From Terriglobia bacterium (GTDB lineage Bacteria; Acidobacteriota; Terriglobia; Terriglobales; Acidobacteriaceae): a stretch of DNA of 64,000 bases. Where the stretch lies: NCBI GenBank assembly GCA_020072585.1, contig JAIQGL010000014.1, positions 62,001 to 126,000 of the forward strand. Reading direction: 5' to 3'. This document shows positions 3,326 to 32,184 of this stretch, piece after piece. Position 1 is the stretch's first letter; every line of letters begins with the position of its first letter. Position numbers and translations under genes: made by a program. The notes under the pieces are model-generated. The model saw nothing but the letters and a program-made list of their open reading frames with translations, was not told where the DNA came from and searched no databases.

Positions 3326-4741
<1,416 letters not shown>

Positions 4742-4814
4742 TCAGGCTCGGCGCTTCCAGCGCTTGCCCACTTCTGTTATGGTGAAACTTTACTCCGAGG
4801 AGAGAGCAACGACA

Positions 4815-5114
4815 ATGTCCATACCCCAGCAGCCCAATATCCGCCTGGTCAACGCGGCCGATTACCGTGATAGCTACGCCAATTCCATCCAGATCCGCGT
4901 GAGTGTTTGGGACTTTCTGCTGGTGTTCGGACGCCTGAACCCGCTGAACGCGCAGGATGTGGAAGTGCAGAATTTTCAGGGGATCTATCTCAGCCCACAA
5001 CAAGCCAAAGCGCTGCTGACGATTCTGGAGCAAAATGTGCGCCAGTACGAAGGCACCTTCGGGGAAATCAAGCTCGATCCCTCCATTACCGCGCAACAAG
5101 GGCAGATCAACTAG
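4815..5114 (+). CDS. DUF3467 family small protein
   Basis: A 99-residue cytoplasmic protein. The pattern YANSIQIRVSVWDF ... QGIYLSPQQAKALL ... YEGTFGEI matches the DUF3467 family, which has no established biochemical role. The ORF track start (4632) runs back into the enolase promoter region. The start chosen here is ATG 4815 (MSIPQQPNIRL), preceded by a GAGGAG-like element, and gives the usual family length. It is divergent from enolase and is followed by the GT39 gene 51 bases downstream on the same strand. Confidence 0.8.
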   Translation: MSIPQQPNIRLVNAADYRDSYANSIQIRVSVWDFLLVFGRLNPLNAQDVEVQNFQGIYLSPQQAKALLTILEQNVRQYEGTFGEIKLDPSITAQQGQIN

Positions 5115-5165
5115 TACGCTGTTGACAAGTGGGCTCCGGCATCCTTTCTGTGAGAAACAGAACAA

Positions 5166-6764
5166 TTGACCACCTCGCACACTAACCGGCTCCCGCAACT
5201 ATCGTTCGTGCACGTCTTTCCACTGATCTTTGTTGCGATCTTTCTGCTGCATGCGCCGCTGCTGCGCCTGCCCTTTTTCTGGGATGAAGCCGGCTTTTAC
5301 GTTCCCGCCGCCTACGATCTGGCGCACTCTCACACGCTCATCGCAAAGACGACGATCGATACCGGTCATCCACCCCTTTCCGCGGCGTATCTGGCCCTGT
5401 GGTTCACGCTCAGCGGATGGAAGCCTGCGGTGGCACGCATCGCTATGCTTTTACTTGCGGCGCTGGCGCTGACCAACGTCTTCCTGCTGGCCAGACGGCT
5501 GGCTGGAACCGGCGTTGCCGTGGCAACAACCATTGCCACCGCGCTCTATCCGGTCTTTTTTGTGCAGAGTTCCCTGACGCACGCGGACCTTATGGCTGCG
5601 GCGTTCACGTTCTGGGGAATCAGACTCTACATTGAAGATCATGCCTGGCCCAGCCAGCTTGCGTTTTGCCTTGCTGTTTTGAGCAAGGAAACGGCTGTCA
5701 TCACGCCGCTGGCATTTGCGCTTTGGGAGCTCTTACAGATGCGCGCTCTTGGCCGCAGCCAGCTCCGGCGCGCCGTGATCGCGCTGGTTCCAGTTGTACC
5801 GTTGCTGTGCTGGCTTGCCTACCACTATCACGCCACTGGAAGGTTTTTTGGCAATGCCGACTTCTACCAGTACAACGTGACCCATGCACTCAGCCCGCTT
5901 CGCTTTGTGCTGGCGCTGGCGCAGCGGATCTGGCATCTTTTCGGTGCCATGAACATGCTGGCGCTGACCGCGGCCACCGTGATGGCCATGTTCTTTCCGC
6001 CGGTCAAAGATCCATCCGGAGAGCGCCCGCGTATTGCTGTTCCCGTGCAACTCCAGTTTGGGCTCATCATGCTGGCGCACCTGGTGGCATTTTCACTCCT
6101 GGGCGGCGCGCTGCTCACACGCTACTTGCTGCCGGCTTATCCGCTGGTGATTCTGATTGGCATGTCAACCTTGCACCGGCGCATTGCGCGCTGGGAATGG
6201 CCGGCTGCGGTGATGATTATCGTCTTTGTGCTGGCGCTCTTCTTTGATCCACCATACCGGACCGCGCCTGAGGACAACCTGACGTACAAGGATTTCATTG
6301 AGTTGCACTATCAGGCGGCGAAGTTTCTGGAGCAGCACGAACAGAATTCCACAATCCTCACGGCCTGGCCGGCAACGGACGAACTTTCCCGACCCTATTT
6401 AGGGTACGTGGCGCAATCATTTCCCCTGGTTCAGGTACAGGACTTCACGGTGGAAGAGATGGTCAAGGCGCGACAGATGCGCTCAAAATATCAGGTGGCC
6501 TATCTGTTCTCGACCAAAAATGAATTGTCTCCATGGATTCGCTCCGAGCGGTGGGAAAAACTCAATCAGCGCTTCTTTGGCTCTCACCGTGATGTGTCTC
6601 CTGATTTGGCGGCGGAGTTCCTTCACGGCAAGATCGTTTTTCTGGCCAGAAGCCGGGCGGAATGGGTGGCGATCCTGGAACTGGATCAACCCTCCTCCGT
6701 GGCTTCTGCCGGAGAGATGCATAGACCGCCAAAAGACGCCCACTCAATTTTGCCGCAAAAATAA
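5166..6764 (+). CDS. GT39-type membrane glycosyltransferase (ArnT/PMT-like)
   Basis: A 532-residue polytopic membrane protein with about ten hydrophobic segments. The first periplasmic loop contains FFWDEAGFYVPA, where the DE pair corresponds to the catalytic acidic residue of the GT39/GT-C family, followed by TGHPPLSAAYL, a standard family feature. These enzymes move a sugar from a polyprenyl-phosphate donor to lipid or protein acceptors on the outer face of the inner membrane. The acceptor here is unknown. The C-terminal 180 residues are soluble and periplasmic. The listed start is a TTG with only a weak ribosome binding site; a GTG at 5208 is an alternative and would still precede the first membrane helix. 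Confidence 0.8.
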   Translation: MTTSHTNRLPQLSFVHVFPLIFVAIFLLHAPLLRLPFFWDEAGFYVPAAYDLAHSHTLIAKTTIDTGHPPLSAAYLALWFTLSGWKPAVARIAMLLLAALALTNVFLLARRLAGTGVAVATTIATALYPVFFVQSSLTHADLMAAAFTFWGIRLYIEDHAWPSQLAFCLAVLSKETAVITPLAFALWELLQMRALGRSQLRRAVIALVPVVPLLCWLAYHYHATGRFFGNADFYQYNVTHALSPLRFVLALAQRIWHLFGAMNMLALTAATVMAMFFPPVKDPSGERPRIAVPVQLQFGLIMLAHLVAFSLLGGALLTRYLLPAYPLVILIGMSTLHRRIARWEWPAAVMIIVFVLALFFDPPYRTAPEDNLTYKDFIELHYQAAKFLEQHEQNSTILTAWPATDELSRPYLGYVAQSFPLVQVQDFTVEEMVKARQMRSKYQVAYLFSTKNELSPWIRSERWEKLNQRFFGSHRDVSPDLAAEFLHGKIVFLARSRAEWVAILELDQPSSVASAGEMHRPPKDAHSILPQK

Positions 6765-6813: not shown

Positions 6814-6918
6814 CTACGAGAGAATCCTTGCAACAACAGAATGAATGCTGGTGTTGTACCAAAAATAACCGAACACCAACGCCGTCGACTCTACCACCCG
6901 GAACCACTGCTTTTTCAT
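6814..6918 (-). CDS. Possible 34-residue hydrophobic small protein
   Basis: Too short for the ORF track. An ATG at 6918 on the minus strand opens a 34-codon frame (MKKQWFRVVESTALVFGYFW...) ending at TAG 6814-6816. It is preceded by a purine-rich GGGAGAGG element about 7-10 bases upstream and lies 20 bases downstream of the CWH-protein stop on the same strand, as if in a two-gene unit. The sequence has two basic residues, then a hydrophobic stretch long enough for one membrane helix. No family is recognised. Chance occurrence cannot be excluded; conservation in relatives would decide. Confidence 0.3.
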   Translation of the reverse strand: MKKQWFRVVESTALVFGYFWYNTSIHSVVARILS

Positions 6919-6938
6919 GGCCCTAACCTCTCCCTGAT

Positions 6939-7169
6939 TTAGCCGTTTGCCTCAACTTCCACACGCGCATGGGTAAATGGCTTCTGCTCATTGGGGGAGA
7001 GAACACGCATTTTCTTCCAGTCGTAAGCGAATTCGGTGCCACAATCGAGGCATACTACATACGTTCCCGTCTGCATGGCAGCCTCACAGCGTCGCTGTCC
7101 TGATTTGCTGGTCTGGGGGAAACTGATTCGTTTATGCCAGCATCCGAACAAAGCGTCTAAAATCTTCAC
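6939..7169 (-). CDS. Small CWH/CxxCG putative zinc-binding protein
   Basis: The core carries CWHKRISFP near the N-terminus and TYVVCLDCGTEFAYDW in the middle. The Cys/His pattern (CWH plus CLDC) suggests a single bound metal, probably Zn. I recognise this as a recurrent small protein of Acidobacteriota of unknown function, usually 70-80 residues. The ORF track start (GTG 7238) gives 99 residues and has no clear ribosome binding site. GTG 7169 (MKILDALFGCWHK) sits 5 bases after a strong GGAGGAG and gives 76 residues, so I prefer it. Family assignment is from memory of the pattern, not from a search. Confidence 0.7.
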   Translation of the reverse strand: MKILDALFGCWHKRISFPQTSKSGQRRCEAAMQTGTYVVCLDCGTEFAYDWKKMRVLSPNEQKPFTHARVEVEANG

Positions 7170-7650
7170 GATCTCCTCCCGCTGTTGCTTTCGATTTTTG
7201 AGGAGGGCTCTAATCCCCTCACAAGCAACCTTCGGCACATCTTGGGCTCGTACCCCAGGTAACGGGCCGCAGGGCCTGTACCATCGTTATGTAAATAGTG
7301 GTAATTGACCTGACTTCGTTTCACCTCTATTTCCACAAACATATGACACAAAATGTCAGGGCTTTTATTTAACGCTCTCTCTTGCAATACGTTGAACGCA
7401 GGAATTCTGGATTTGTTGCATTAAGAATCGTTGGCTGGCTGGATAAACCCAATTAAACCTCTGTGGAATCAGAGGCTTAGACCATCTTCTGATTTTCCCT
7501 GCCAGCAGCCCGGTTGAGAAAATCCCCTGCTCCTGCTTTAGCAAAACGCAAAATTAGAATGCACCAATAAAAAAGAAGATGCCGCATTGCCTGATCATTT
7601 ATTGTATGGTGCTCGATTCACCCAGCTTGTCCCTTGGAAGGTTGTGCACG
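7170..7650. other. Intergenic region between divergent genes
   Basis: About 480 bases with lower GC than the flanking genes and no convincing ORF. It should hold the promoters of the minus-strand CWH gene and the plus-strand FMN reductase. A small perfect hairpin (CCTCTG-TGGAAT-CAGAGG) lies at 7458-7475. I could not fix a convincing -35/-10 pair for either gene. Confidence 0.5.
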
Positions 7651-8226
7651 ATGTACTTCATCCCCGTAATCCTTGGCAGTATCAGGCGCAACCGAGAGAG
7701 CGCTAAAGTGGCTCAATTTGCTTTTGACTGGCTAAGGCAGCTGGATCGGGTCCGGACCGAGTTGTTGGATTTAAAGGAGCTGGACCTGCCCATGATGGAA
7801 GAGCGACTCAGGTTCCGCAAGGATGGGCCTGCCAGTGTCGTGGAGTTCAGCGCCAAGATCAATCAAGCGGATTCAATCGTCATTGTTTCTCCGGAATACA
7901 GTGGCGGCTATCCGGGTGTTCTGAAGAATGCATTGGACTACTTAAAATCTGAGTACCAGCGTAAACCCTTCGGCATCATTACTGTATCCGCAGTTGAAAC
8001 CGGCGGCATTCTCTGCCTGAACGGATTGCGTCAGGTCGTTTTACATCTGGGCGGCGTTCCAATTCCAGCCAGCCTTATGGTGGCGCGCGTGCAGGAGTCA
8101 TTTGACACAGAAGGCAATCCCACTGATCCGAAATTTACACTCAATGCCAGGAAGTTTTTTGATGAGCTTATGTGGTTTACTGAAGCTCTGTCCGCCAGAC
8201 GAAGCGCAAAAACCACGGCAACGTAG
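7651..8226 (+). CDS. NAD(P)H-dependent FMN reductase family protein
   Basis: A 191-residue flavodoxin-fold protein. The start ILGSIRRNRESAKVA is the phosphate-binding loop of the NADPH-dependent FMN reductase family (GSxRxxR/S), and SPEYSGGYPGVLKNALDYL is the flavin-contacting loop. Members reduce FMN, quinones, chromate or azo dyes; the physiological substrate cannot be told. The ORF track start at 7579 adds 24 residues; ATG 7651 is preferred because it begins directly at the fold and has GGAAGG about 10 bases upstream. It stands alone between intergenic regions, so it is probably monocistronic. Confidence 0.85.
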   Translation: MYFIPVILGSIRRNRESAKVAQFAFDWLRQLDRVRTELLDLKELDLPMMEERLRFRKDGPASVVEFSAKINQADSIVIVSPEYSGGYPGVLKNALDYLKSEYQRKPFGIITVSAVETGGILCLNGLRQVVLHLGGVPIPASLMVARVQESFDTEGNPTDPKFTLNARKFFDELMWFTEALSARRSAKTTAT

Positions 8227-8550
8227 GTCGCTCGCTGGAAAATGATTCCTGCAATCAGGATGCAATTCCATTCACACCTTTTTGTTCTTGTAGAAATTTC
8301 GCACCAAAACCGGGGCGATTCGAAAAATCCCAAAATGAGATTCTTGCCCCACTACGGGAATTCTTGTTGTTCAAATCCTTTCATTAGCGAAATTTTTCTT
8401 TCTAAGATTTGAAATTTGTTGACAGTCCATGACAGAGCGACTAGCCTCCCTCAAAAGATCATGCGCGCGTTAAGGCATTTGACCTTGTTGGCGCGTGAGA
8501 TTTGGCTGCTACAATCTTTTTTCTAGGTTCCCGTGAGGTGAAAGAGCAGG
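8227..8550. other. Intergenic region upstream of the aroE fusion gene
   Basis: About 320 AT-richer bases with no supported ORF. The 3' part contains the candidate promoter listed separately. I saw no strong intrinsic terminator for the FMN reductase gene. Confidence 0.5.
8488..8515 (+). promoter_or_regulatory. Candidate sigma70-type promoter for the AroD-like/AroE gene
   Basis: TTGGCG and TACAAT are separated by 16 bases, with the -10 box ending 35 bases before the ATG at 8551. The -10 matches the consensus at 5 of 6 positions and the -35 at 4 of 6. An upstream TTGACA at about 8419 is another -35 candidate without a good partner. Prediction by eye only. Confidence 0.35.
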
Positions 8551-10095
8551 ATGGCTAATGTTGCGCTCGTTGCAACCCTCACAGCGCCCTTGTCTTCCGG
8601 TGTACGTGAAATTACAGCGCTCCCCGCTTCAGTTGCATGGCTGCAATGGCGGGCGGACATGGCCGGTCATGTTTCGGCTTTGCGGTTGCGTACTTATTTC
8701 CCCGGAAAGCTCCTATACACCCTCCAAAGCACACGCCACGGCGGCGTGTTTGCGGGACCAGCCACAGAAAGGCACAGTCACATTCTTGCGGCTGCGCCGC
8801 ACTATGATTTGGTGGAACTGGAAGCAGAAACCGATCTCACACATGAACTGCTGAGCGCGATTCCTCCATACCAGCGCATGATTTCCTGGAGTGGCACGGC
8901 GTGCGATGCCGCTCAACTCCATCGCCAGTTCAATGAAATCAGCGCAATACCGGCGCATTCCTATTGCCTGACCGTGACCAGCGACAAAACCAGTGACGGA
9001 TTGCAGACCCTCCTTTTCCTGAAAGCCCTGGACCGCAATGACGTTACAGCCTACTGCAAAGGACCATTCGGCCTCTGGAGCCGTTTGCTGGCGCCTTTTT
9101 TTGGCGCGCCTTTTCTTTTTGGCCATGCTGGACCCCAGACCTCCACTTCTGGCGATCCGGCAGTCAACAAGCTGATTTCTGACTATGGCTTCCCTTCTCT
9201 GTACCCCGTGAGCGAGCTTTATGGCATGGTAGGAAACAGGATCTTCCAGTCGCCATCGCCACGGCTGCACAATGCAGGATACCGCGCTCTCGACTATCCC
9301 GCGCTGTTTCTCCCTTTCCATGTGGAGAGCTTTGAAGAATTCTGGAAAGAAATGATTGCCTCCCCGCAGCTTGAGTCGCTGGGAGTTCCAATTCAAGGGT
9401 TAACGATTGTTTCTCCGCACAAGGAAGTCGCACTGCACGCAGCCGGGCTGCGCAGCCCCATGGTCAGCCGGGCCGGAGCCTCCAACATCTTCGTCCGCAA
9501 AAATGGCGTGTGGGAGGCCCATACCACTGATCCTGAGAGCGTGGCATCGCTTCATAACAGTCACCCAGACGGACAGAATGGCAAAACGACACTGCGGAAG
9601 GCCGCAGTGATCGGCTGCGGGGGCGCTGGCCGGGCCGTGGCTGCCGCGCTGCAACAATCAGGCGTAGACGTCACATTGGTCAATCGCGGCAAGGAGCGCG
9701 GAGACCGCGCCACTCAACTCCTGGGATTGCCGTTCATCTTGTTGTCAGAATTTGAGGCCCACGGCTTTACTCTGCTGGTGAATGCCACGCCTATTGGCCG
9801 TGAAGACGATTCTCTTCCCTTTGCCATTGACTCGCTCAGCCATGACACAGTGGTGGTTGATCTGGCCTACGGAGCACGCCCCACTCCGCTTGTCTCCGGA
9901 ATACATACGCGAGGCGGCACCGTGATTGATGGTTATGACGTAGTCCTGACCCAGGTACGCAAACAATTTGAAATGATGGTGGGATTGGAGATGCCCCGCA
10001 GCGTCGGGCGTGACGCGGTAATGTCAACCAGTCCTCCAATCGGCGCCCTTCACCCAGTGGAAGTTGAGCAGGAGGCTTTTGAATGCAGCCCCTGA
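8551..10095 (+). CDS. aroE: Degenerate type I dehydroquinase domain fused to shikimate dehydrogenase
   Basis: A 514-residue two-domain protein. Residues about 1-215 resemble type I 3-dehydroquinate dehydratase (WRADM, ISWSGTA, GLWSRLLAPFFGAPF), but by eye the motif positions expected to hold the catalytic His (HDF motif) and the Schiff-base Lys are not His/Lys, and the ExR glutamate is Gln. Residues about 225-500 are shikimate dehydrogenase: YGMVGNRIFQSPSPRLHN, SPHKEVALHA with the catalytic Lys, HTTDPESV with the catalytic Asp, and the NADP loop GCGGAGRAVAAAL followed by VNRG. The second half should reduce 3-dehydroshikimate to shikimate in chorismate synthesis. The first half is probably structural or regulatory, with another dehydroquinase (type II AroQ) expected elsewhere. 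It is followed by an acyl-CoA dehydrogenase gene 67 bases downstream. Confidence 0.85.
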   Translation: MANVALVATLTAPLSSGVREITALPASVAWLQWRADMAGHVSALRLRTYFPGKLLYTLQSTRHGGVFAGPATERHSHILAAAPHYDLVELEAETDLTHELLSAIPPYQRMISWSGTACDAAQLHRQFNEISAIPAHSYCLTVTSDKTSDGLQTLLFLKALDRNDVTAYCKGPFGLWSRLLAPFFGAPFLFGHAGPQTSTSGDPAVNKLISDYGFPSLYPVSELYGMVGNRIFQSPSPRLHNAGYRALDYPALFLPFHVESFEEFWKEMIASPQLESLGVPIQGLTIVSPHKEVALHAAGLRSPMVSRAGASNIFVRKNGVWEAHTTDPESVASLHNSHPDGQNGKTTLRKAAVIGCGGAGRAVAAALQQSGVDVTLVNRGKERGDRATQLLGLPFILLSEFEAHGFTLLVNATPIGREDDSLPFAIDSLSHDTVVVDLAYGARPTPLVSGIHTRGGTVIDGYDVVLTQVRKQFEMMVGLEMPRSVGRDAVMSTSPPIGALHPVEVEQEAFECSP

Positions 10096-18035: not shown

Positions 18036-21000
18036 TTACGGCTTAGGAGTTTCTGGTTCCTCCTCTTTGTCTTCCGCCGCCTTCGCTGGCGCCTTTCTGT
18101 TCAGGAACCGCTCCTGCGGGTCTTTCTTTGCCGGATGCACCTTCTCAATGGCCTCTGGAACCGCGTGTGGATGAACACTGGGCAGCGCCAATAGCTTTGG
18201 CGTCCCACCGGTCAAGCACGTAAGTTGGTCCTTTGGAGTAGCATTCACCCGGAACAAGCCCCAGTTGCCGCCGGAAGCAAACTCGCCGACAGGAAAGCTC
18301 TTGTAGAGGTAGTCTCCCGAGACTTTGTTCCTGCCGCCTGCGCTTGCAAGCACGATGTCGAAATGGTTTCCTGGCCCAAAGCCGTCACGGGCGCCAAACC
18401 ACTGCGAGTTAGCGTTATTACCAATCGCCGCACTGGAGACATTGCCCACCGTGACATATGGCTCTTCCTGCCATACGTGGCCATTGATGGTCCAGACATC
18501 GTCAGGGAAGCCTCCCAGACCGTCTGGATGCAGCATGCGGAAACGAACCGGGGTTCCCGCCACGGCGCAGAAGATCGGCGTTTGCGGGTTACCCTGTGGT
18601 TTCGTCGGACTGAAGAATGGGTTTGGCATGTTGTTGGAAAATGCCTGCGATACATCCACTTCATCAAAATTAGAATTACTCGGCGGTGTTCCCGACGAAT
18701 CCTGGTAGCGGTAAGGCATTGGCTCTGCGCCAAAATTCGTGAAGTTGAAGACGGGGTAGTTATTGCCTGAGTCCGCTTGATTCGCCGTCAAATAGATGTT
18801 GTTCTGCATCATGGTCACGAATTCGCGGAACATCAACTTGCCGTATGAATCCGTCACGTCGGCGCTGGTTCCGTTGGCGGGCCATTTCGACCCCTTGGGT
18901 TCCACGATGAGCGCCCCGATCATCGCCAGCGGCTGCTGCTCGATGGGATCAGAGGCAATCAGGTTGGCCGATCCTAATTCAATCGGTACTCCTGTTGTGA
19001 TGCCGTCAGGATTGGTAATCACTTCCCCGGCATACCATTTGTATTGTCTCGGTGTACAGGCGCCAGTGGCGGGACACGGGGGCGTGACCTGACTCGGGTT
19101 CATGCCCACATTCACGCCGTTGCCTTCTGTAACGTCATAGCCAACCATTTGCGCATGCATGCCCACGTTCACTGAAGGAATCACAGGGATTTGCCAGGGT
19201 GTGGCTCCGCCCGCGCCGCTAATGTTGCCATCCGGTGTGGTGAAGACGCTGCCGGATGCGCTGATCTGGCTGGCGGTGATCCGGTTGAAAAGATTTACGG
19301 TGATGCACTCACCGGCGTTGGCCCGCAGGACCAGTGGATCCTTGGGAGGGTTCGGGCCCACAGGATTTCCATTGTTATCAGCTGTCATATAGAGCAGCGC
19401 GCCGCTCTGGCTGGTAATTGTGCTGGTGGGCGCATCATGGGAGTTGTAGGTAATTCCATCCGCGTTGTAAACCGCGGCAACGTTGTAAGTACGGTTCCCG
19501 GTGGCGTTGGCTGGACAGCTTCCGCTGGCTTTGAGCGTAACACCGCCTCCAGGATTGTTAGGTAGAGGTTGCAAGCCAGGAACATTCTTTGGATTCCCGC
19601 CCGCGTTATACGAACGCAAAATTCCCCACATGCCCTGGCCTACGTCCAGAACTCCTGAACCGGGCATATAGAGATAGTCGGCACTCGACCCTTTGGTTGA
19701 AGGCAGCTTGAACTGGAACTCATAGTGCTCTGAGATGCCCATGGCCTGATTGTCGCGGTATCCAGAGGTACTGGAGGAAGGCTCAAACAGCCACTTGAGT
19801 CCTTCAATACCGAAGTTGTGATTAAAGAGATACGCTCCCACCAGCACGCGTACCTGCACACGATCGCCTTGAAATGCCCGCAGCAGCGGCGTGTAAGGAT
19901 CGCCCTTCTGCACGCAGTTTCCGCAGGAAAGCAGCGGCGGCGGATACTGGAAGTTGTTCGTTGGTCCGGAAGTGATCCGTTGCGGAAATACCGGCTGCGT
20001 ATTCAGGATCGAATCGTTCCGTGTGATGTTGGAGTTGAATACGTAGGAAAGATCGGTGGCCTGGTTGGTTGGATCGTGTTTGCAGTTGTTTGCATTCGGG
20101 CATTTCGGGTCTGAGACGCGGAATGCCAGAGGCTCATTCCTGTAATTCACGTTCATGGTACCCACGATCGGCGATCCGCTGATCAGCGTGGGCGCGCATC
20201 CACTGCCCGGCTGGTTGATGGCGTTTTTGCTTTCACACCATCCCCACGGCGTAGTGGGATTTACCGGCGGAGGTTGCGGATACTTGATCGGCTGCCCTCT
20301 GCTGGTGTTGTTATAGGCCAGCGCAAGGTCCTGGAACTCGATCAGAAATTCGCGATAGCTGTCCGCGGTATTGCTGGTAACGATGTTGGCCTGCCAGCTT
20401 GTGGGGCCGCCATCCGTACCGCCGCCGAGCGGCGTGCCATTTTCAGAGTTGAGCCACTTTGATTGCTCCGGCTCCACCACCAGCCCGGCGTACAAGCCGG
20501 CTTGTTGATGAGTGGATGGACCAAAGTGATCGTGGGTAAAAACGGTCCGCAGGGTCCGGTCACTACCCTTGCCGTTGTTAGGACATGGCGGCCAGAAGCA
20601 GCCATCCAGCGAATCTGCATACCAGCGCTGGATGGTCGTGGTGGCCCCCTTCCAGCTTTGCCCTGCCGGCGCCGTGCCAAAGGAGATGGGATATCCGTTC
20701 GCCGGGGTTGGGTCTTTGGCCACCGGGCAGGTAAAGTTCACCGGAGATGTAGGCTGGCAGTTGTTCTCTTTTCGGATCGCGTCAATGCGGTCCGTCACCT
20801 CGTTTGGACTCAGGGTGCCATCCTCATAGTTGTAGCCATTGGAGGCGCCGTCAGAGGCAAGAACATCAAACTTCACCAGGTGGATGTGCTGGCCCAGAAT
20901 GTCAGTGGGCGTGCGTACCTGGAAATTATCCAGTTCGTAATAGCTGGGGACCAGGTTGGTCTGCCAGAATTCGACAACGTCAGTCTTGCTGTTGGCGCGG

Positions 21001-23480
21001 AAAAAGAACGGCTCCGGCGCGCGTTGTCCGGAGAAGGTTTTAGAGACATCACTCCACAGAGTTATAAAGCGCTCCTGCGGGTAGTGCCATCCCTTCTTGT
21101 TGAAGACAACGTCAGTCTGGATATCGGCAGCCTTGTAACGCCGGACTTCTCCAATGGCTTTTCCATCGTCAGTCACGGCAGGATCAGCAAAAGGCGCGCC
21201 AGGTTGTGGCCCGCGCGGCAGTCCATTGGTTATGAAAACTCCGGGGGCGCCGTCAGGCAGGTAACTGGGATGGTTACGCACCTGATTGAAAGCCATGGCG
21301 ACTTTTTCCACCGGAGTTCCCTCTTCCGGCAACTCTCGGGCAAGCATGGTGTGATTGTCTTTGCTGAAGTCCCACTTGTTGTGGCGCTCGCCGTCAACGC
21401 TCGCGTCCAGCACCACATGCCGCGCCAGCCCGCCATCCAGATACATCGGCTTGCCGTCAGTCCCAAGAATCGGTTGTCCGGTCGCGGTCAACGCGGGTGC
21501 AAAATCAAGTGGAGGCGGCGGAGCACGATGCCCGGCGATTCCGGGAACAAAGAACGGGAATCCGGGATTGGAGCACGTTCCCGCCGTTGATCCGTCCAGG
21601 CGATCACACTTTGGAATAGTTTTGGCTTCATAGCCGTCAAGCTTTCCGGGGGTCTTGGGGTCCTGGACAGGAACAATTTCCACCTTGGCCGGAATGGGAG
21701 CCATGGCTTTGGTGGGCAATGGCACAACGGCCGGAATGGGAGTGCCCGCGGCAATCTCACCATCAGGCAGGGCGCGTGCGCCTTTTACAGGAACACCGTT
21801 TTGTAACTCCGTCCCTGATTCAAAGACATCATGAACGCGGAACATCGACCCCAGGGTCTGGTTGCGGTTGCCGCCTCCGTTGTAATCAATCTCGATCGTA
21901 TAGGAAGCGCCCGGGCTGAGCAGCTGGCTGTCTAAGTAACTGCTGTTGGGATCGTTGGGTGTGTGTATCCACTGATGCGCGTGCTGGTGATGCACATGCG
22001 TAAGGTTGGAGCCGCCATGCAGAACGCGAAACTTCACATGGTCCCGCAGATAGGCGTGATAAACGTTGGAGGGATCATCCGGGAAAAAAGCCACCCTGGC
22101 CTTCTGGCCCGGCTGGGGCGTGGAAGGACTGGGCAACGCTGTGCCATTGACTTGCAGGTCCTGCAACGCGTTGACCCACGGGGTAACAATATTTGGATTC
22201 TTGATCGGCGGATACTGGGTCACGGACGGTATGTTCGCCGGCACATCCACGACCATGGCCGGGTCGCCTACCGCCCACGATGCCAGAAAGAATTCTTCAA
22301 ACTTGCAGTCTGGGCAATTCCACATGGGACCAACATGGACCCTGTTGGCCAATACCTCAGCGCCTATGGCTCCAGTGCCGTAATTAATGGCAAAGTTGTC
22401 TTTGCCTGGCCCGAGCACGGTGTGCATATCCGGTGCGGTGCTGCCTGAAGGCGGCGGATAAAAATCAGCAAACGCCTGCACCGCGCTGGTGACTTCATGG
22501 TAGTGAATCGTAAACTCGCGGTATGGTTCCCGGCGGTTGGGCGATGCGGGAATGGGATTGAATTCCGGTCCCGGCTGTGTTGCAGGAAAAGCGCCGGCGT
22601 TCGGGCCTGTAATGATTGCGTTAAGGTCGGTATGGATGGTATTGCCGGATGTATCCACCATTCTCAAAATCGGCACGCCTGCGCGGGGATGTCCCTGCGG
22701 GTAAACAGCGTTGTAATTCAGAATGGGGTGTCCATCTGGGGTAAAACCGTTATTTCCTTTGGAACGGTTGATCGCCAGCAACAGATCAGCGCGCGTGACC
22801 TGGCTGCGATAGTATTCCGCGTTGGGCGGCTCAACGGTAACCGCGCCAAACAATCCGGCAGTAATCTGCCCGCCTTCACTGCCTGCGCCAAACGTTGAGG
22901 CCGTGGTATAGAGCAGGAACGTTCCTTCTTCCGCTGCATAGAGATTGTAGGTTTTATTACCCCCTGGGGCCACCAGGCTGCTGACATTCTTGCCGACGTT
23001 GGAAGCATCATCTGCAATGCTGGTCGCCAATTCCAGTCCGCTGACGTGCAAAGACGTGGAACGCGTTACCGGCTGAAGCGGGCTTGGCGGAGTGTCCGCC
23101 AGCCAATTCGTGAAATTGATCTTGAGGCATTGCCCCTGGTTGACTCGCAATACGATAGGACGAGGACGTTTGTCCGTGCGCAGGCGCACCTGTCCCTTCT
23201 GGCATGCGACTTTAGAACAGCTCTGGCCGTCGCTGGACCGCACCAGGTCAGACGTGAGCGCAAAAACCATGCCTTGTGGCATTGCGGCGCCCAGCCGGTT
23301 CAGCATGAACGGCTGATCGAGCGAAGCAACATTGGCTGTAACAGTATTCTTAACAGAACAAGCAACCGGTGGGGCTTGAACTGGCGCTGGTGCTGCTCCG
23401 GAAGATTGAATACTCCAGAAGCTGGTTAACAGTATTGCTGCAAACGAAATGAGTCGGAGGAAGGACAGCTTGCGGGGCAT
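18036..23480 (-). CDS. Giant MofA/MnxG-like multicopper oxidase
   Basis: An exported 1814-residue protein with a signal peptide (SFLRLISFAAILLTSFW, cleavage after SSGA). Cupredoxin modules recur: LRVNQGQCLKINF near residue 115 and LRANAGECITVNLF near 1390; the GALIVEP/GLVVEP strand ends occur three times. Putative copper motifs are THVHHQHAHQW (about 497), GQHIHLVKF (about 865), HDHFGPSTHQQ (about 987) and NHNFG (about 1223). This size and the HQHAHQW/YLDSQ block match MofA-type oxidases implicated in Mn(II) oxidation. I found no classical HCHxxxH type 1 motif, so activity is an inference. The start is ATG 23480 with AAGGAG 5 bases upstream; the track start 23513 is 11 codons too early. Confidence 0.82.
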   Translation of the reverse strand: MPRKLSFLRLISFAAILLTSFWSIQSSGAAPAPVQAPPVACSVKNTVTANVASLDQPFMLNRLGAAMPQGMVFALTSDLVRSSDGQSCSKVACQKGQVRLRTDKRPRPIVLRVNQGQCLKINFTNWLADTPPSPLQPVTRSTSLHVSGLELATSIADDASNVGKNVSSLVAPGGNKTYNLYAAEEGTFLLYTTASTFGAGSEGGQITAGLFGAVTVEPPNAEYYRSQVTRADLLLAINRSKGNNGFTPDGHPILNYNAVYPQGHPRAGVPILRMVDTSGNTIHTDLNAIITGPNAGAFPATQPGPEFNPIPASPNRREPYREFTIHYHEVTSAVQAFADFYPPPSGSTAPDMHTVLGPGKDNFAINYGTGAIGAEVLANRVHVGPMWNCPDCKFEEFFLASWAVGDPAMVVDVPANIPSVTQYPPIKNPNIVTPWVNALQDLQVNGTALPSPSTPQPGQKARVAFFPDDPSNVYHAYLRDHVKFRVLHGGSNLTHVHHQHAHQWIHTPNDPNSSYLDSQLLSPGASYTIEIDYNGGGNRNQTLGSMFRVHDVFESGTELQNGVPVKGARALPDGEIAAGTPIPAVVPLPTKAMAPIPAKVEIVPVQDPKTPGKLDGYEAKTIPKCDRLDGSTAGTCSNPGFPFFVPGIAGHRAPPPPLDFAPALTATGQPILGTDGKPMYLDGGLARHVVLDASVDGERHNKWDFSKDNHTMLARELPEEGTPVEKVAMAFNQVRNHPSYLPDGAPGVFITNGLPRGPQPGAPFADPAVTDDGKAIGEVRRYKAADIQTDVVFNKKGWHYPQERFITLWSDVSKTFSGQRAPEPFFFRANSKTDVVEFWQTNLVPSYYELDNFQVRTPTDILGQHIHLVKFDVLASDGASNGYNYEDGTLSPNEVTDRIDAIRKENNCQPTSPVNFTCPVAKDPTPANGYPISFGTAPAGQSWKGATTTIQRWYADSLDGCFWPPCPNNGKGSDRTLRTVFTHDHFGPSTHQQAGLYAGLVVEPEQSKWLNSENGTPLGGGTDGGPTSWQANIVTSNTADSYREFLIEFQDLALAYNNTSRGQPIKYPQPPPVNPTTPWGWCESKNAINQPGSGCAPTLISGSPIVGTMNVNYRNEPLAFRVSDPKCPNANNCKHDPTNQATDLSYVFNSNITRNDSILNTQPVFPQRITSGPTNNFQYPPPLLSCGNCVQKGDPYTPLLRAFQGDRVQVRVLVGAYLFNHNFGIEGLKWLFEPSSSTSGYRDNQAMGISEHYEFQFKLPSTKGSSADYLYMPGSGVLDVGQGMWGILRSYNAGGNPKNVPGLQPLPNNPGGGVTLKASGSCPANATGNRTYNVAAVYNADGITYNSHDAPTSTITSQSGALLYMTADNNGNPVGPNPPKDPLVLRANAGECITVNLFNRITASQISASGSVFTTPDGNISGAGGATPWQIPVIPSVNVGMHAQMVGYDVTEGNGVNVGMNPSQVTPPCPATGACTPRQYKWYAGEVITNPDGITTGVPIELGSANLIASDPIEQQPLAMIGALIVEPKGSKWPANGTSADVTDSYGKLMFREFVTMMQNNIYLTANQADSGNNYPVFNFTNFGAEPMPYRYQDSSGTPPSNSNFDEVDVSQAFSNNMPNPFFSPTKPQGNPQTPIFCAVAGTPVRFRMLHPDGLGGFPDDVWTINGHVWQEEPYVTVGNVSSAAIGNNANSQWFGARDGFGPGNHFDIVLASAGGRNKVSGDYLYKSFPVGEFASGGNWGLFRVNATPKDQLTCLTGGTPKLLALPSVHPHAVPEAIEKVHPAKKDPQERFLNRKAPAKAAEDKEEEPETPKP

Positions 23481-23717
23481 AGAGTCTCCTTCTTGCTGCG
23501 ATCGAGTTCCCAAAATGCCGTTTGTGTGGGGGATTTTTCAGACGCTCATCGAGCGCCCGGGCTGTTTGCTTACAATGGTTCAGCAAACATTTGTCTGGTT
23601 TCCGAACTTGAAGCAGCGCGCAAATCACTTTTTGGATTGAGTCAAAACTGGTGGTAGTGTAGTCGGCGATTTATTGCTTCGCAACTTAATAAGAAAAATT
23701 TTGGACCTGTTAACCAA

Positions 23718-25400
23718 ATGTGTAAACATCACCTTTCCCTAGGTTCCATTTTGGTGCTCTCGTGCGCGCTGGCGGCACAATGCATCTCCAATGAAGTCTC
23801 GCGGCACGAAAAATCGTCTGCGCAACAACCCGGCAGGCCAACAACCACCGTCACTAGCAACAGCCCCATGCAAACGCCTTCGGACGCGACAGCACGCTGG
23901 AAAAAAGTCCAGCGCACTCTTCTCCGCGATGGAATCGCGCTGCAACTTGAAGTGGAGCCGATTGAACCACAGGTCTCTTCTTCCGCGGCACACGCGGGAA
24001 CGGCGCTACGGGTCCGTCTGGCCGTCAATGATTCTGTCACGCATGCACCGTTGACCGGGCTGCATCCCTCTGTCTGGATGAGTCTGAGCGCGGGTGAAAA
24101 CGTTCCCTGCAGCGCGCGGGCGCGCGCATTTTTGCGCAGAGGCCTGCTGGAAAAGCAACCGGAGCTGGACCTGAACGACTATTACGTTCTGGTGCTGAAT
24201 CAGGATGCGACCATTCATGTGGTTGATCCGCAATTTTCCTCCGGACGCCCGCAACTGGTGACCTCCATTGCCTTGCCTGGACACGCCGACGATTGGCTGC
24301 TTTCTGCCGACCAATCCAGGCTTTTGGTTTCCATCAGCCAGCCTGGCGAGATCGTGATGGTTGACACCGCAACGTGGACGATCGTTCATCGCGTAAAAAT
24401 TTCCGGCGCTCAAAAACTTGTATTGCAACCTGACGAACACTACCTTTGGGCCAGCTACTCCGGTAGTGAGTCAGGCGTTGCCGTGCTTTCAGCGGCAGAC
24501 CTGCATCTGATCACGCGAATACCACTGCATGCCGGCCGTCATGATATCGCCATCAGCAGTGACAGCCGTCTGGCATTTGTAACTGACCCCGGCGCCACAT
24601 CCGTTTCCATTCTTGACGTTGCGCGGCTCACTCGCACCCGGGAGTTGAAGACACCCGGGCCTGCTTCGTCGATTGCTTACTCGGCTGCCTCCCAATCTGC
24701 TTACGTAACGACCACCAGCGGAAGCATCGTTGTCATCAACGAACGCGGTGAGATTATCAGCCGCATGGAAACCGAGCCCGGCCTTGCGCACATCGCCTTC
24801 TTCCGTGACGGACGTTTTGGCTTTGCGCTGAACCCTGAGAAAGGATTGCTCCATGTGATTGACGCCGCGCGCAATACCGTGGTGCAAACCACTCCGATTG
24901 ACGCTAAGCCAGAACAAATCGCTTTCTCAGACCAGCTCGCCTACGTCGTCCGCCGTGACAGCGATCTCATCGAGATGGTTCCTCTCGACCGAGTGGGCGC
25001 GCCTGGCACTGCTGTCTCCACGGTGGACCTTCCTGCCGCGCATAACGCCTTCGCGCACGCCACCGCCGATGAGCTGACCACGACCATGGTCCAGGCGCCC
25101 GGCGAAAATGCGGTAGTAATTGCGAACGCAGCCGATAAAGCCGTCTTCTACTATGAAGAAGGAATGGCAGCACCCATGGGAACTTTCAGCAACTTTGGCA
25201 AACCACCAAGATCCGTGCTGGTGGTTGATCACAGCCTGAAAGAAAAATCTCCGGGCATCTATGAAGCCGCTGGCCGCCTGGAAAAACCTGGAATATATAT
25301 TGTTCCCGTTCTGCTTGACGCGCCGCGCATCGTTGAATGCTTCACGCTTCCTATCGGCTCTGGAGATCCCGCACCTGCGGCAAACCCCGCGCCTCACTAG
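23718..25400 (+). CDS. Exported YVTN/cytochrome-d1-like beta-propeller protein
   Basis: 560 residues with an N-terminal export signal (LGSILVLSCALAAQC). Residues about 60-130 form a small beta domain and residues about 150-440 a seven-bladed propeller built of YncE-like repeats (TIHVVDPQF, EIVMVDTATW, GVAVLSAADLHL, SVSILDVARL, SIVVINERGE, LLHVIDAARN). No heme-binding or catalytic residue is evident. A short C-terminal domain ends in a Pro/Ala tail. It is divergent from the multicopper oxidase, which suggests a shared control region, and is convergent with the cytochrome gene. A role as partner or scaffold of the oxidase is inferred from position only. Confidence 0.7.
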   Translation: MCKHHLSLGSILVLSCALAAQCISNEVSRHEKSSAQQPGRPTTTVTSNSPMQTPSDATARWKKVQRTLLRDGIALQLEVEPIEPQVSSSAAHAGTALRVRLAVNDSVTHAPLTGLHPSVWMSLSAGENVPCSARARAFLRRGLLEKQPELDLNDYYVLVLNQDATIHVVDPQFSSGRPQLVTSIALPGHADDWLLSADQSRLLVSISQPGEIVMVDTATWTIVHRVKISGAQKLVLQPDEHYLWASYSGSESGVAVLSAADLHLITRIPLHAGRHDIAISSDSRLAFVTDPGATSVSILDVARLTRTRELKTPGPASSIAYSAASQSAYVTTTSGSIVVINERGEIISRMETEPGLAHIAFFRDGRFGFALNPEKGLLHVIDAARNTVVQTTPIDAKPEQIAFSDQLAYVVRRDSDLIEMVPLDRVGAPGTAVSTVDLPAAHNAFAHATADELTTTMVQAPGENAVVIANAADKAVFYYEEGMAAPMGTFSNFGKPPRSVLVVDHSLKEKSPGIYEAAGRLEKPGIYIVPVLLDAPRIVECFTLPIGSGDPAPAANPAPH

Positions 25401-25412
25401 ACTTGCCATCTG

Positions 25413-27029
25413 TCATTCATCCGTCTTCCGGGACTTGCCGCATTCGGGCTGGAATGATTTCGTGTCCAGGTCCGCACAGACAATCTCAGCCCTGGTGGAG
25501 CCAATGCGTCGATTGGCGCCAAACGTAATGCCGGGAAGCAGGCCGGTCTTAAAATCGCGCAGCTGTTCCATCCCCAAAATCAATTTTTCGCGGGTAACGT
25601 TGCGGCCCGCGCGGGTCAGAGCATCTTCCAGGATTTTTGCCGCGCAATACACTGAAATCTGCACTAACCGGTGGTCGCGCGTCAGCTTGTGGCGTTGCAG
25701 AAAATCGTCAAATGAGTCCACCGCGCCCAGTTCAGGCTGAAGCTGTGGATAGGCCGCAAAGATCCTCCCCTGCAAACGAACGGGCGCGGTGAAGATGCTT
25801 TCGTCCATGAGCGGTCCCAGAACGAACACGTCAGGTGCCCATCCTGCGCGGTCGGCAGCCTGCATCCACAGCGAAAGCTGTTCTCCGTTGCCGATGAAAA
25901 AGATCGCGCTGGTTTCCTGGCCTTGCAGATCGTGAACAAGCTGTGCGGCGTTCGCCGGAGAAAACGCGACGGCACGCGGCTGGCCTGCTCCCAGTTCGCT
26001 CCAGGTGATTTGTATTGCGCCGGACAGTTCCGATTGCAGCTCGCTATCCGCAACAATGATGGCCGACTTTGCCGGCGTCAGGTTGCCCTGTACAGCGGCA
26101 AAGCGAATCAGCTCCTGCTCCAGTTGCTGGAAGCCCGGCAGAAGGTAGAAAACTTCACGATTCGCAGGATCGTCAGGCACGGAAAGCGCCAGCAGTCCGA
26201 CGAGCGGCAGGTGGTCCGCATGGGCCAGCGCCGCAAGACCGTGCTCTGCTCCCGGCACAAAAGGCGCTACCATTGCAAACGTTGGCGCAGCAGCAAGCCG
26301 CCTGGCGGTCTTCAATGCCATGGCGCTATCAGCTCCGGAATCGGCAAAGCGCAACAGGATTTTGCGTCCGTAGATGCCGCCGCGCTGATTCACATCGTCA
26401 AAATATGCCGTTAGTACCGCCCGCACTGCAATGCCAACGTCAGCATTTGCGCCCTGTAAAGGCGCCAGGCTGCCTATTGTGATGCGCGCCGGTTCTATTC
26501 CCGGATCACTGTCAGTTGAAATCTTTTTGAGATATGCCACCAGCGCTGCCGCACTTGCTGGCGACAACCGGAATCGTGGCATCAATGCGGAAAGCTTGGC
26601 CCCCGCAGGATCAAGCCCTGCCATGACCGCGCGCGTGAATGACGTAGCAGTAAATGCGCCGTGCTTCCGTCCATCGGCATGAGTATGGCCGTAAGGAACA
26701 GTCAGGAATTGCCATGTGATCTCGCCAGGGTCTTGTCCGTTCTCCGGACGCCCTTTGCCGTCAGCGCCATGGCAACTCGCACAAGGCTGGAGCCGGGCGG
26801 ATACTAGAAGGTCGCCCATCACGCCCTTGATTTCTTTTCCTGCGCAGTCCGCTCCCTGGAAGTAAATCTTTCTGCCGCATGCTTCCTGTTGCGTGAGTGG
26901 GGCTGCGCACATTGCAGGCGTGCTAAAGGCAAACAGCAAACCTGCGCAGAGTCCCGTCTGCCAGTAGCTTCGAGCCAAAAAGCCGGCATGCTGCAAAATC
27001 ATTTCACTCAATCTCAGGATCAAAATCAC
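25413..27029 (-). CDS. Cytochrome c domain fused to a type 1 periplasmic-binding protein
   Basis: A 538-residue exported fusion. After a signal peptide (CAGLLFAFSTPAMCAAP) comes a monoheme cytochrome c domain with PCASCHGADGKG and a distal Met in ALMPRFRLSPASAAALVAYL (to about residue 170). Residues about 180-520 resemble Leu/Ile/Val-type substrate-binding proteins (IGSLAPLQGANADVGIAVRAVL, YFDDVNQRGGIYGRKILL). A ligand-binding domain joined to a heme suggests sensing or redox coupling rather than ABC import; no permease is nearby. The start GTG 27029 overlaps the SCO stop as GTGA, so the two are translationally coupled. Confidence 0.82.
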   Translation of the reverse strand: MILILRLSEMILQHAGFLARSYWQTGLCAGLLFAFSTPAMCAAPLTQQEACGRKIYFQGADCAGKEIKGVMGDLLVSARLQPCASCHGADGKGRPENGQDPGEITWQFLTVPYGHTHADGRKHGAFTATSFTRAVMAGLDPAGAKLSALMPRFRLSPASAAALVAYLKKISTDSDPGIEPARITIGSLAPLQGANADVGIAVRAVLTAYFDDVNQRGGIYGRKILLRFADSGADSAMALKTARRLAAAPTFAMVAPFVPGAEHGLAALAHADHLPLVGLLALSVPDDPANREVFYLLPGFQQLEQELIRFAAVQGNLTPAKSAIIVADSELQSELSGAIQITWSELGAGQPRAVAFSPANAAQLVHDLQGQETSAIFFIGNGEQLSLWMQAADRAGWAPDVFVLGPLMDESIFTAPVRLQGRIFAAYPQLQPELGAVDSFDDFLQRHKLTRDHRLVQISVYCAAKILEDALTRAGRNVTREKLILGMEQLRDFKTGLLPGITFGANRRIGSTRAEIVCADLDTKSFQPECGKSRKTDE

Positions 27030-27652
27030 TGCCGCCTATTCTGGGCGCTGCCGGAAGCAGTCGCCATCATCTGCTCAACGTTGTGCATGAGCGCCGCAGT
27101 GGCACCCAGACCGTAAACGCGCTTCCACAGCGCCGCTTTGTCATTCACGATCAACACCATGGGCGAATGATTTTCCGGCGATGCCGTATCGGCCCCCAGC
27201 ACACGCAAGAGCCGATTCAACTCTGCTTTATCGCCTGTAACCAGCGTCCAGCCGGGCTTTGCTTTGAATTGCGCTCCCCAGGCGCGCAAGCGCTCAGGAG
27301 TGTCAGTAGCAGGGTCAACCGAAACGGAAATAAGAAACACGTCTTTCCCTAGCCGCTCTCCCAGGTTTTTTTGCAGCTTGCCGAATGTTGCTCCCAGCGG
27401 CGGACAAATCGTGGTGCAGGTAGTGTAAATAAAATTAATCACCACAACCTTGCCTCGGACCAAGTCACTGTAAAAATGGCGTGGCGTGCCATTCTGGTCC
27501 ACTACTTTTATGTCAGGTATCTGCGCCGGCGCGTGATCAGCGGTAAATGCCTTCTGCGCACCACCAGTAGGCAGATTAGAAGTATGTGCGGTTATGCCCA
27601 GCAGCAGTGCCGGCGTCACAAGGGCCATCGCGAATTTCCATGTGCCGTCCAA
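27026..27652 (-). CDS. SCO1/SenC-family copper chaperone
   Basis: A 208-residue thioredoxin-fold protein with an N-terminal membrane/export signal. It has the copper-binding CTTIC motif (CxxxC) in INFIYTTCTTICPPLG and the conserved distal His in ENHSPMVLIVND. SCO proteins deliver copper or reduce cysteines at periplasmic copper sites, classically CuA of cytochrome oxidase. No cytochrome oxidase is nearby here; the large multicopper oxidase is the plausible client. It is first gene of a two-gene minus-strand operon with the cytochrome fusion. Confidence 0.9.
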   Translation of the reverse strand: MDGTWKFAMALVTPALLLGITAHTSNLPTGGAQKAFTADHAPAQIPDIKVVDQNGTPRHFYSDLVRGKVVVINFIYTTCTTICPPLGATFGKLQKNLGERLGKDVFLISVSVDPATDTPERLRAWGAQFKAKPGWTLVTGDKAELNRLLRVLGADTASPENHSPMVLIVNDKAALWKRVYGLGATAALMHNVEQMMATASGSAQNRRQ

Positions 27653-30070: not shown

Positions 30071-30994
30071 CTACTTTGCCCGGGGATGCGTCCTGTCATA
30101 TACATCCATCACATGGGTAATCGATAGCTGGGTATATTTCTGCGTAGTGGAAAGCCGCTCATGTCCCAATAGCTCCTGGATCGCCCTCAGGTCTGCCCCT
30201 TCCGTCAACATGTGCGTGCCAAAGGCATGGCGCAAAGTGTGCGGATGGATGTCCGGCGGCAACCCTCTGGCCACCGCAACCTGCTTTACGATCCGCCCCA
30301 CACTGCGCGTGGTCAACGGACCGCCGCGCTGGTTAATGAAAAGCCGCCGCGTACTCTTGCCCGTTGCGTTGAGCAACCGCTGCCGCGCCTCGCGATAAAC
30401 CGTCAGTGCATCCGCCGCCGCGCCTTCCAGTGGCACATAACGCTGCTTCTTCCCTTTTCCCCGGATCAGGATCACCCCGTTGGCCTCTTCAATATCGCCC
30501 AACTCGGTCCCCACCAGCTCTGAGTTGCGCAGCCCGCAGCCATAGAGCAGTTCAAAGATCGCGCGGTCGCGCTCCGGAAAAGCCGCGCTCTCCGGCATCT
30601 CGCTGTTCAGCAGCCCGTTGATCTCTTCCATCGTCGGAACGCGCGGCAGTTTCTTTGGCAGCTTTGGCGTGGAAACCAGCTTTGCCGGGTTCTGCTGGAC
30701 AACTCCCTCCCGCGCCAGCCACTTGTACATGGACCGCAACGCTGCCAGAGCCCGCGCCACCGATACCTTGCTCAAACCACAGCCATGCAGATGCGAGAGA
30801 AATCCTCGAATGGAAACGTGATCAATCTCTTTCCAATGCGCCTCCGGGCCCATGTATTCGGCAAAGCGCTTCAGTTCATTGCCATACGCGCGCAGCGTGT
30901 GTGCTGAGGCATTCCGTTCGCCCCGCAGCGAATCAAGAAATTTCTTGATGCCTCTCTGGATTTCCGCGCCCACCCGGTTCTCTGCTGACTTCAT
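30071..30994 (-). CDS. xerC: XerC-type tyrosine recombinase
   Basis: 307 residues with an N-terminal SAM-like core-binding domain (about 15-100) and a catalytic domain carrying the tyrosine recombinase set: [11 protein letters not shown] (first Arg), [11 protein letters not shown] (Lys), [19 protein letters not shown] (His-x-x-Arg), LLGHERLST (His) and the nucleophile in KYTQLS. Xer pairs resolve chromosome dimers at dif before division. The start overlaps the stop of the upstream recombinase gene by 4 bases. Which of the two is XerC and which XerD is a best guess from motif flavour. Confidence 0.85.
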
Positions 30995-31947
30995 GGCTGC
31001 CCCGCTGTCCCGCTTCTCTTGCCTCGCGGATGAAACTTGCGATACACGGTTTTCAGCCGGTCCAGCGCCACATGTGTATAGATCTGGCTGGTAGAGATAT
31101 CGGCATGGCCCAGGATCGTCTGGACGGTGCGCAGGTCCGCTCCGTTTTCCACCATGTGCGTGGCGCAGCTATGCCGCAGCATGTGCGGGCTCGCGTGTCG
31201 GCCGGAAGCGGAAGCGTCTTTCACCATCTTCCACACGCGCTGCCGGGTCAACAGGCTCCCTCCGCGACGCACAAAAAGCATCGCTGAAACCCTGCCATTC
31301 AGCAGCGCCTGACGTCCGTCAACGATATACGTGCGGATTCCCTCTTGTGCGGCTTTTCCTATCGGCACAATTCGTTCCTTGTCGCCTTTGCCCCGAACCA
31401 GCACGTATCCCATCTCCAGTTTCAGGTCTTCCAGCTTTACGTGCACAATCTCTGAGACCCGCAACCCGCCTGCATAGAGCATCTCCAGCATCGCCCGGTC
31501 GCGCTGGGCCAGCGCCGCGGAAAATTTGGAATCTCCCGCCCTTCCCGCCGACTCCAGCATGGAATCTATCTCCGCCGCCGCCAGCGACTTCGGTAGCACC
31601 TTCCACTGCTTCGGCGAATCAATTTCCAGCGTCGGGTCATGCTGGATCATCCTGTCCAGCAGCAGGTATTTGTAAAAGTGCCGCAGTGTTGACAACTTGC
31701 GTGCCACTGAACGGTCTTTAACGTCGTTCGCAAACAACTGGCTCAAAAAGCCGCGCACATCTTCCCGCCGGGCTTGCGCTAATGTCCGCCGGCGCGCTTG
31801 CAAGAACTCCGTGAATTGCACCAGGTCAGAGTGGTAGGAACTCACCGTCAGCGGCGCCAGCCCTTTCTCTACTTTCAGATAGTCGAGAAAGCCTTTCACC
31901 ATTGGATCAGGACGACCGGTGCTTCCGTGCTTGTTATCAGACGCCAT
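30991..31947 (-). CDS. xerD: XerD-type tyrosine recombinase
   Basis: About 318 residues with the core-binding domain ([23 protein letters not shown]) and catalytic motifs [59 protein letters not shown]. The ORF track start at 32046 adds 33 residues that overlap an interspersed-repeat-like sequence (GCGTTAATCAGCGGT), so ATG 31947 is preferred; its GGAG is unusually close at 3 bases. It partners with the downstream recombinase in a two-gene overlapping unit. Confidence 0.85.
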
Positions 31948-32184
31948 ACGCTCCAGTATCCTGCATGCCCGGATTGCGGCAAATACCTCCGCTGGTTCCG
32001 AATTCGCTTTAACCTGATCAGTTCTGTCTTCCCTGATCAGCGTCATCTGCGTTAATCAGCGGTAGGGTTTTGGTTTTCCGATCACACAAAGCCGCGCGGC
32101 GCAAATTCGCCGCGCCTCAAACCGTCATCCTGAATGAGCGGCCAAAGCCGGGAGTGAAGGACCCAAACCGGCGAAGCCCACTTT

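Follow-up and report, generated by a model that had tools for sequence, protein, structure and literature searches.

Whether a giant multicopper oxidase set among the genes of a Mn(II)-oxidation operon can still act as a metal oxidase is the question raised by a locus in the genome of a Terriglobia bacterium, which we analyzed within a window of 64,000 nucleotides. A preliminary description had placed a copper chaperone and a cytochrome c protein beside the oxidase, with a propeller protein divergent from it, and this arrangement was confirmed for all four genes. The oxidase reading frame as listed spans 18036–23513 on the minus strand (1825 codons); the ATG at 23480 is the likelier start, with AAGGAG as a Shine–Dalgarno sequence ahead of it and a signal-peptide-like stretch, as judged by eye, following it, thus placing the gene at 18036–23480. 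An intergenic region (23481–23717) separates the oxidase gene from the divergent gene for a YncE/YVTN-type β-propeller on the plus strand (23718–25400). The remaining two genes lie on the minus strand and overlap by 4 bases: a fusion of cytochrome c and Peripla_BP_6 (25413–27029; E 7.4e-6 for Cytochrom_C and 8.5e-36 for Peripla_BP_6), with the cytochrome in the N-terminal position and its CASCH motif at residue 83, and a SCO1/SenC copper chaperone (27026–27652; SCO1-SenC E 8.5e-18) with a CTTIC motif. The codon composition of the cassette resembles that of the neighboring genes.

The oxidase is homologous to MnxG over its full length, as the NCBIfam model NF041487 (MnxG) matched it in three stretches with an E-value of 0 and 1075 bits, and a single-sequence search recovered one PDB relative, Bacillus MnxG (9bxa), with an E-value of 1.7e-71. 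Neither this oxidase nor a second, distinct oxidase that the genome encodes on contig C55 (1329 bits) reaches the equivalog cut-off of 3100 bits set for this model. Likewise, the sampled Gammaproteobacteria and Burkholderiales contained no P. putida-type MnxG above this cut-off, the best match there scoring 2414 bits. The best matches to the MnxG model in the sampled genomes (2414, 2404 and 2183 bits) stem from loci where the oxidase is accompanied by the propeller and, if the contig continues, by two SCO genes and the fusion gene.

Besides McoA and MopA, MnxG is one of the Mn oxidases of P. putida (PMC11409713), and the mnxG operon of strain GB-1 comprises mnxG, a YVTN propeller, two SCO1/SenC genes, an ABC substrate-binding protein that carries a cytochrome c domain, and SurA (PMC11409713 Table 4; PMC8218464 Fig. 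2). The window shares with this operon four adjacent families including the unusual fusion of cytochrome c and binding protein, whereas it has one SCO gene instead of two, an inverted propeller gene lacking the C-terminal domain, and an oxidase that falls short of the required score and misses one copper motif. SurA was not seen beside the window cassette, where the tested neighbors were TPR, DUF2059 and GNAT proteins. Bacillus MnxG of the MnxEFG complex (PDB 9bxa; PMC5622069) is a homologous giant oxidase, but with 1227 residues it is shorter than the window oxidase, has the small MnxE and MnxF as partners and keeps the HCH...M of the motif in question. The mofABC operon of Leptothrix discophora likewise has a giant oxidase with a nearby cytochrome c gene; there, however, mofB codes for an isomerase of the Mip type, the cytochrome c of mofC is a protein of its own, and the set of propeller, SCO and fusion proteins is undescribed (PMC8218464). 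No Mip-type isomerase or separate cytochrome c is found among the window cassette genes, whose cytochrome is fused to the binding protein. Because of this different composition of the mofA operon, MnxG is the better comparison, so that of the initial assignment as MofA/MnxG-like the MnxG part stands and the operon matches mnxG rather than mofABC. Judged from gene content, the window holds an mnxG-type cassette, a type already described in Pseudomonas. Locus L177 was considered as a proxy for MofA and rejected, as its neighbors are unrelated.

The four families recur together well beyond this genome. Among 200 sampled genomes of the same order the oxidase was detected in two, the window's own genome and G132, and all four families are present at each of the three loci concerned (window, C55 and G132). 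A scan of named genomes yielded 31 loci, distributed over Acidobacteriota, Bacteroidota, Pseudomonadota, Planctomycetota and others. Once further genomes from the phylum, from the class to which L064 belongs and from the order of L070 were included, along with two plasmids, the loci encoding a core-family oxidase at full length numbered 50. In this set the propeller accompanies the oxidase at 45 loci, SCO at 39 and the cytochrome fusion at 33, all three partners being present at 33, with some of the absences falling at contig ends. Matches to the fusion protein elsewhere in the order, except for G081, start at residue 137 at the earliest, beyond the haem motif at residue 83, and are mostly 21–29% identical. 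The joint recurrence of the same families across phyla, resembling the P. putida mnxG operon, indicates that the four genes form a real cassette, in line with the co-occurrence that the preliminary description had put forward as a check.

In multicopper oxidases electrons enter at the T1 copper and O2 is reduced at the trinuclear cluster; the motif L4 (HCHxxxHxxxxM) is the source of the T1 Cys, His and Met as well as of two T3 His. The window oxidase lacks L4 due to an in-frame deletion of 51 bases, corresponding to 17 residues that read DSIFHCHFYPHFAQGMW in the C55 paralogue. The alignment in codon view places the junction at ~21848..21849 on the minus strand, where the GGG of Gly555 is joined directly to TCG (ACC CTG GGG / TCG ATG TTC), clean and in frame. 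L4 is present at 49 of the 50 full-length loci, leaving the window as the sole exception, and is retained by distant outgroup oxidases as well. In a profile search against the PDB it aligned with the HCH motif found in two-domain laccases and, in Bacillus MnxG, with HCHLYPAFGIGM. The Bacillus protein (9bxa) has an Ala at the position of the T1 His of other members (HCHFYPH). Another locus, L176, was ruled out as a second case without L4, as its contig ends at the motif. AlphaFold2 models of the L4-bearing domain reached mean pLDDT values of 65.5 for the window and 55.4 for C55, which is too low to base an argument on; part of L4 forms a strand (212–218) in the low-confidence C55 model, as would fit the removal of a strand by the deletion.

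The other copper motifs are retained in the oxidase alignment, all on the minus strand: L3, HVHHQHAHQW (residues 506–515; ~21971..21998), L1, the HIH of GQHIHLVKFD (residues 876–878; 20880–20888), and L2, the HDH of THDHFGPSTHQQ (residues 994–996; 20526–20534). Two further candidates for lost copper ligands, HNFHVHG changed to HNFGIEG and LHGHVW changed to INGHVW, were dropped since these sites vary across the family. As L4 contributes the T1 Cys, His and Met together with two T3 His, its deletion would remove the T1 copper, leave the trinuclear site incomplete and interrupt the electron route from T1 to O2. Judged from its sequence, the window oxidase is thus probably unable to oxidize in the usual way, which speaks against the copper-dependent oxidation mechanism originally proposed for this copy.

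A second lesion affects the neighboring gene. The window propeller has 16 residues beyond residue 545 compared to 99–140 in 37 relatives, making it the only one of the 38 propellers to lack the C-terminal domain. No comparable damage is seen in the other two partners of the window cassette, SCO and the cytochrome fusion, whose genes look intact. In the same genus, a frameshift or a sequencing error divides the propeller of G200 (L106:4254-6132) between two overlapping ORFs. The oxidase next to it has an intact L4 and belongs to another group; SCO and the cytochrome fusion are absent within its reach. SCO proteins of 380–520 residues, about twice the usual length, occur at L046:17511-18716, L048, L050, L062 and L063 and are perhaps two fused SCO genes.

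The C55 cassette of the same genome (L040:9198-19073) has its four genes on a single strand, the oxidase first, followed by propeller, SCO and fusion, and contains all copper motifs. In contrast to the window copy, it keeps both L4 and the propeller C-terminal domain and its propeller gene is not inverted. The two oxidases are 47% identical and fall into different well-supported groups of a FastTree phylogeny, and on these grounds we rejected the idea that the cassettes arose by recent duplication. Within this tree, which contains neither P. putida itself nor MofA, the relatives nearest to the MnxG model are placed on the same side as C55, the support being modest (88). Copper-dependent oxidation may hold for the C55 copy. 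Beside the C55 cassette, L040 carries a secretin-like gene (6907–9201) directly downstream of the cytochrome fusion and a sigma-factor-like gene (5621–6289), both recognized by eye, as well as a di-haem oxidoreductase (3892–5457; DHOR). A search of the genome for heme peroxidase (PF03098) gave no match, the control being equally silent.

In G081, another species of the genus, the corresponding region is collinear with that of the window, and the flanking genes are 73–88% identical. Between these same flanks G081 has a stand-alone binding protein (L044:9664-10875) that is 67% identical to the window fusion, without the cytochrome domain, and its genome has no such oxidase. This binding protein, which has a signal-like N-terminus of its own, is an apparent remnant of the cassette. 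These data are most simply explained by a cassette that the ancestor already had at this locus and that was almost wholly removed in G081 and damaged in the window genome. At 30071–32046 of the window, two neighboring genes encode tyrosine recombinases that look XerC/XerD-like by eye, and this pair is also kept in G081 next to the cassette locus.

Outside the deletion the oxidase has changed little. The window oxidase breaks 15 of 241 near-invariant columns, defined by at most one exception in the 39 other oxidases; 13 of these breaks are the L4 deletion itself, whereas S547G and D863N account for the rest. Thus, there are two substitutions in the remaining 228 columns, a conservation similar to that of the relatives. 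The end branch leading to the window oxidase amounts to 0.76 changes per column, and were even 5% of it free of selection, one would expect about 8 further breaks, with P ~0.009 for observing two or fewer. This bound is conservative, as the constrained rate was taken as the neutral rate. The two breaks outside the deletion imply that the loss is recent, that selection still acts for another role, or that the deletion is unreal.

Taking these data together, we consider it somewhat probable that the window contains a remodeled and recently inactivated mnxG-type copy, and that any such oxidation is carried out by the C55 cassette. The window would then represent a second copy of an mnxG-type operon for oxidation of Mn(II), the presumed substrate of the family, built from a giant exported multicopper oxidase, the β-propeller, SCO and the fusion of cytochrome c and binding protein, and this copy would be in the course of being dismantled, having lost the propeller C-terminal domain in addition to L4. 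Any MnxG-type oxidation in the organism would then come from the separate, intact C55 cassette. Counting against decay are the normal conservation outside the deletion and the intact SCO and fusion genes, as would be seen under selection.

These same features are what one would expect of a pseudo-oxidase maintained by selection, which keeps the fold and the histidines of L1–L3 and serves a non-catalytic role, for instance as a Mn/Cu-binding scaffold, a regulator or a partner of the C55 oxidase. With less than ~5% of the end branch neutral, a frame still open over 5.4 kb, intact SCO and cytochrome genes and an intact paralogue available to be served, we regard this role as conceivable though unlikely: a very recent loss would give the same picture, and the damaged neighboring propeller together with the near-total removal of the cassette in the sister species point to decay.

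An artefact of sequencing or assembly appears more doubtful still. Here, the organism would possess the 51 bases, making the window oxidase an ordinary MnxG-type enzyme; the deletion is indeed known from one assembly, and no second strain carries the window copy. An assembly error is made less likely by the independent and unique lesion in the neighboring propeller and by the lack of a long repeat at the ends of the loss, which is moreover exactly in frame, and the window is free of N. That the window copy is an active copper-dependent metal oxidase passing electrons to the cytochrome fusion is very improbable despite its MnxG homology, the cassette and the intact SCO and cytochrome genes, since L4 is absent and known enzymes of this kind give their electrons to O2.

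In genome surveys, the potential for Mn(II) oxidation is called from MnxG/MofA-like matches. Such matches need a motif check, as the window offers a full-length, well-scoring oxidase within a whole operon, yet without the catalytic copper motif. If the oxidase were indeed a selected pseudo-oxidase, it would constitute a non-catalytic MnxG-family partner in manganese biomineralization. Irrespective of the window copy, the oxidase is recurrently accompanied by propeller, SCO and cytochrome fusion from Acidobacteriota to Bacteroidota, Planctomycetota and an alphaproteobacterial plasmid, rendering the roles of these partners a general and testable question, and the presence of an intact and a damaged cassette in one genome makes these roles testable in a single organism. 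The plasmid, pSH1 of Sphingobium xenophagum, carries a divergent version of the cassette (L179:7860-16945), annotated as hypothetical proteins, SCO family protein and c-type cytochrome, and its location suggests horizontal movement.
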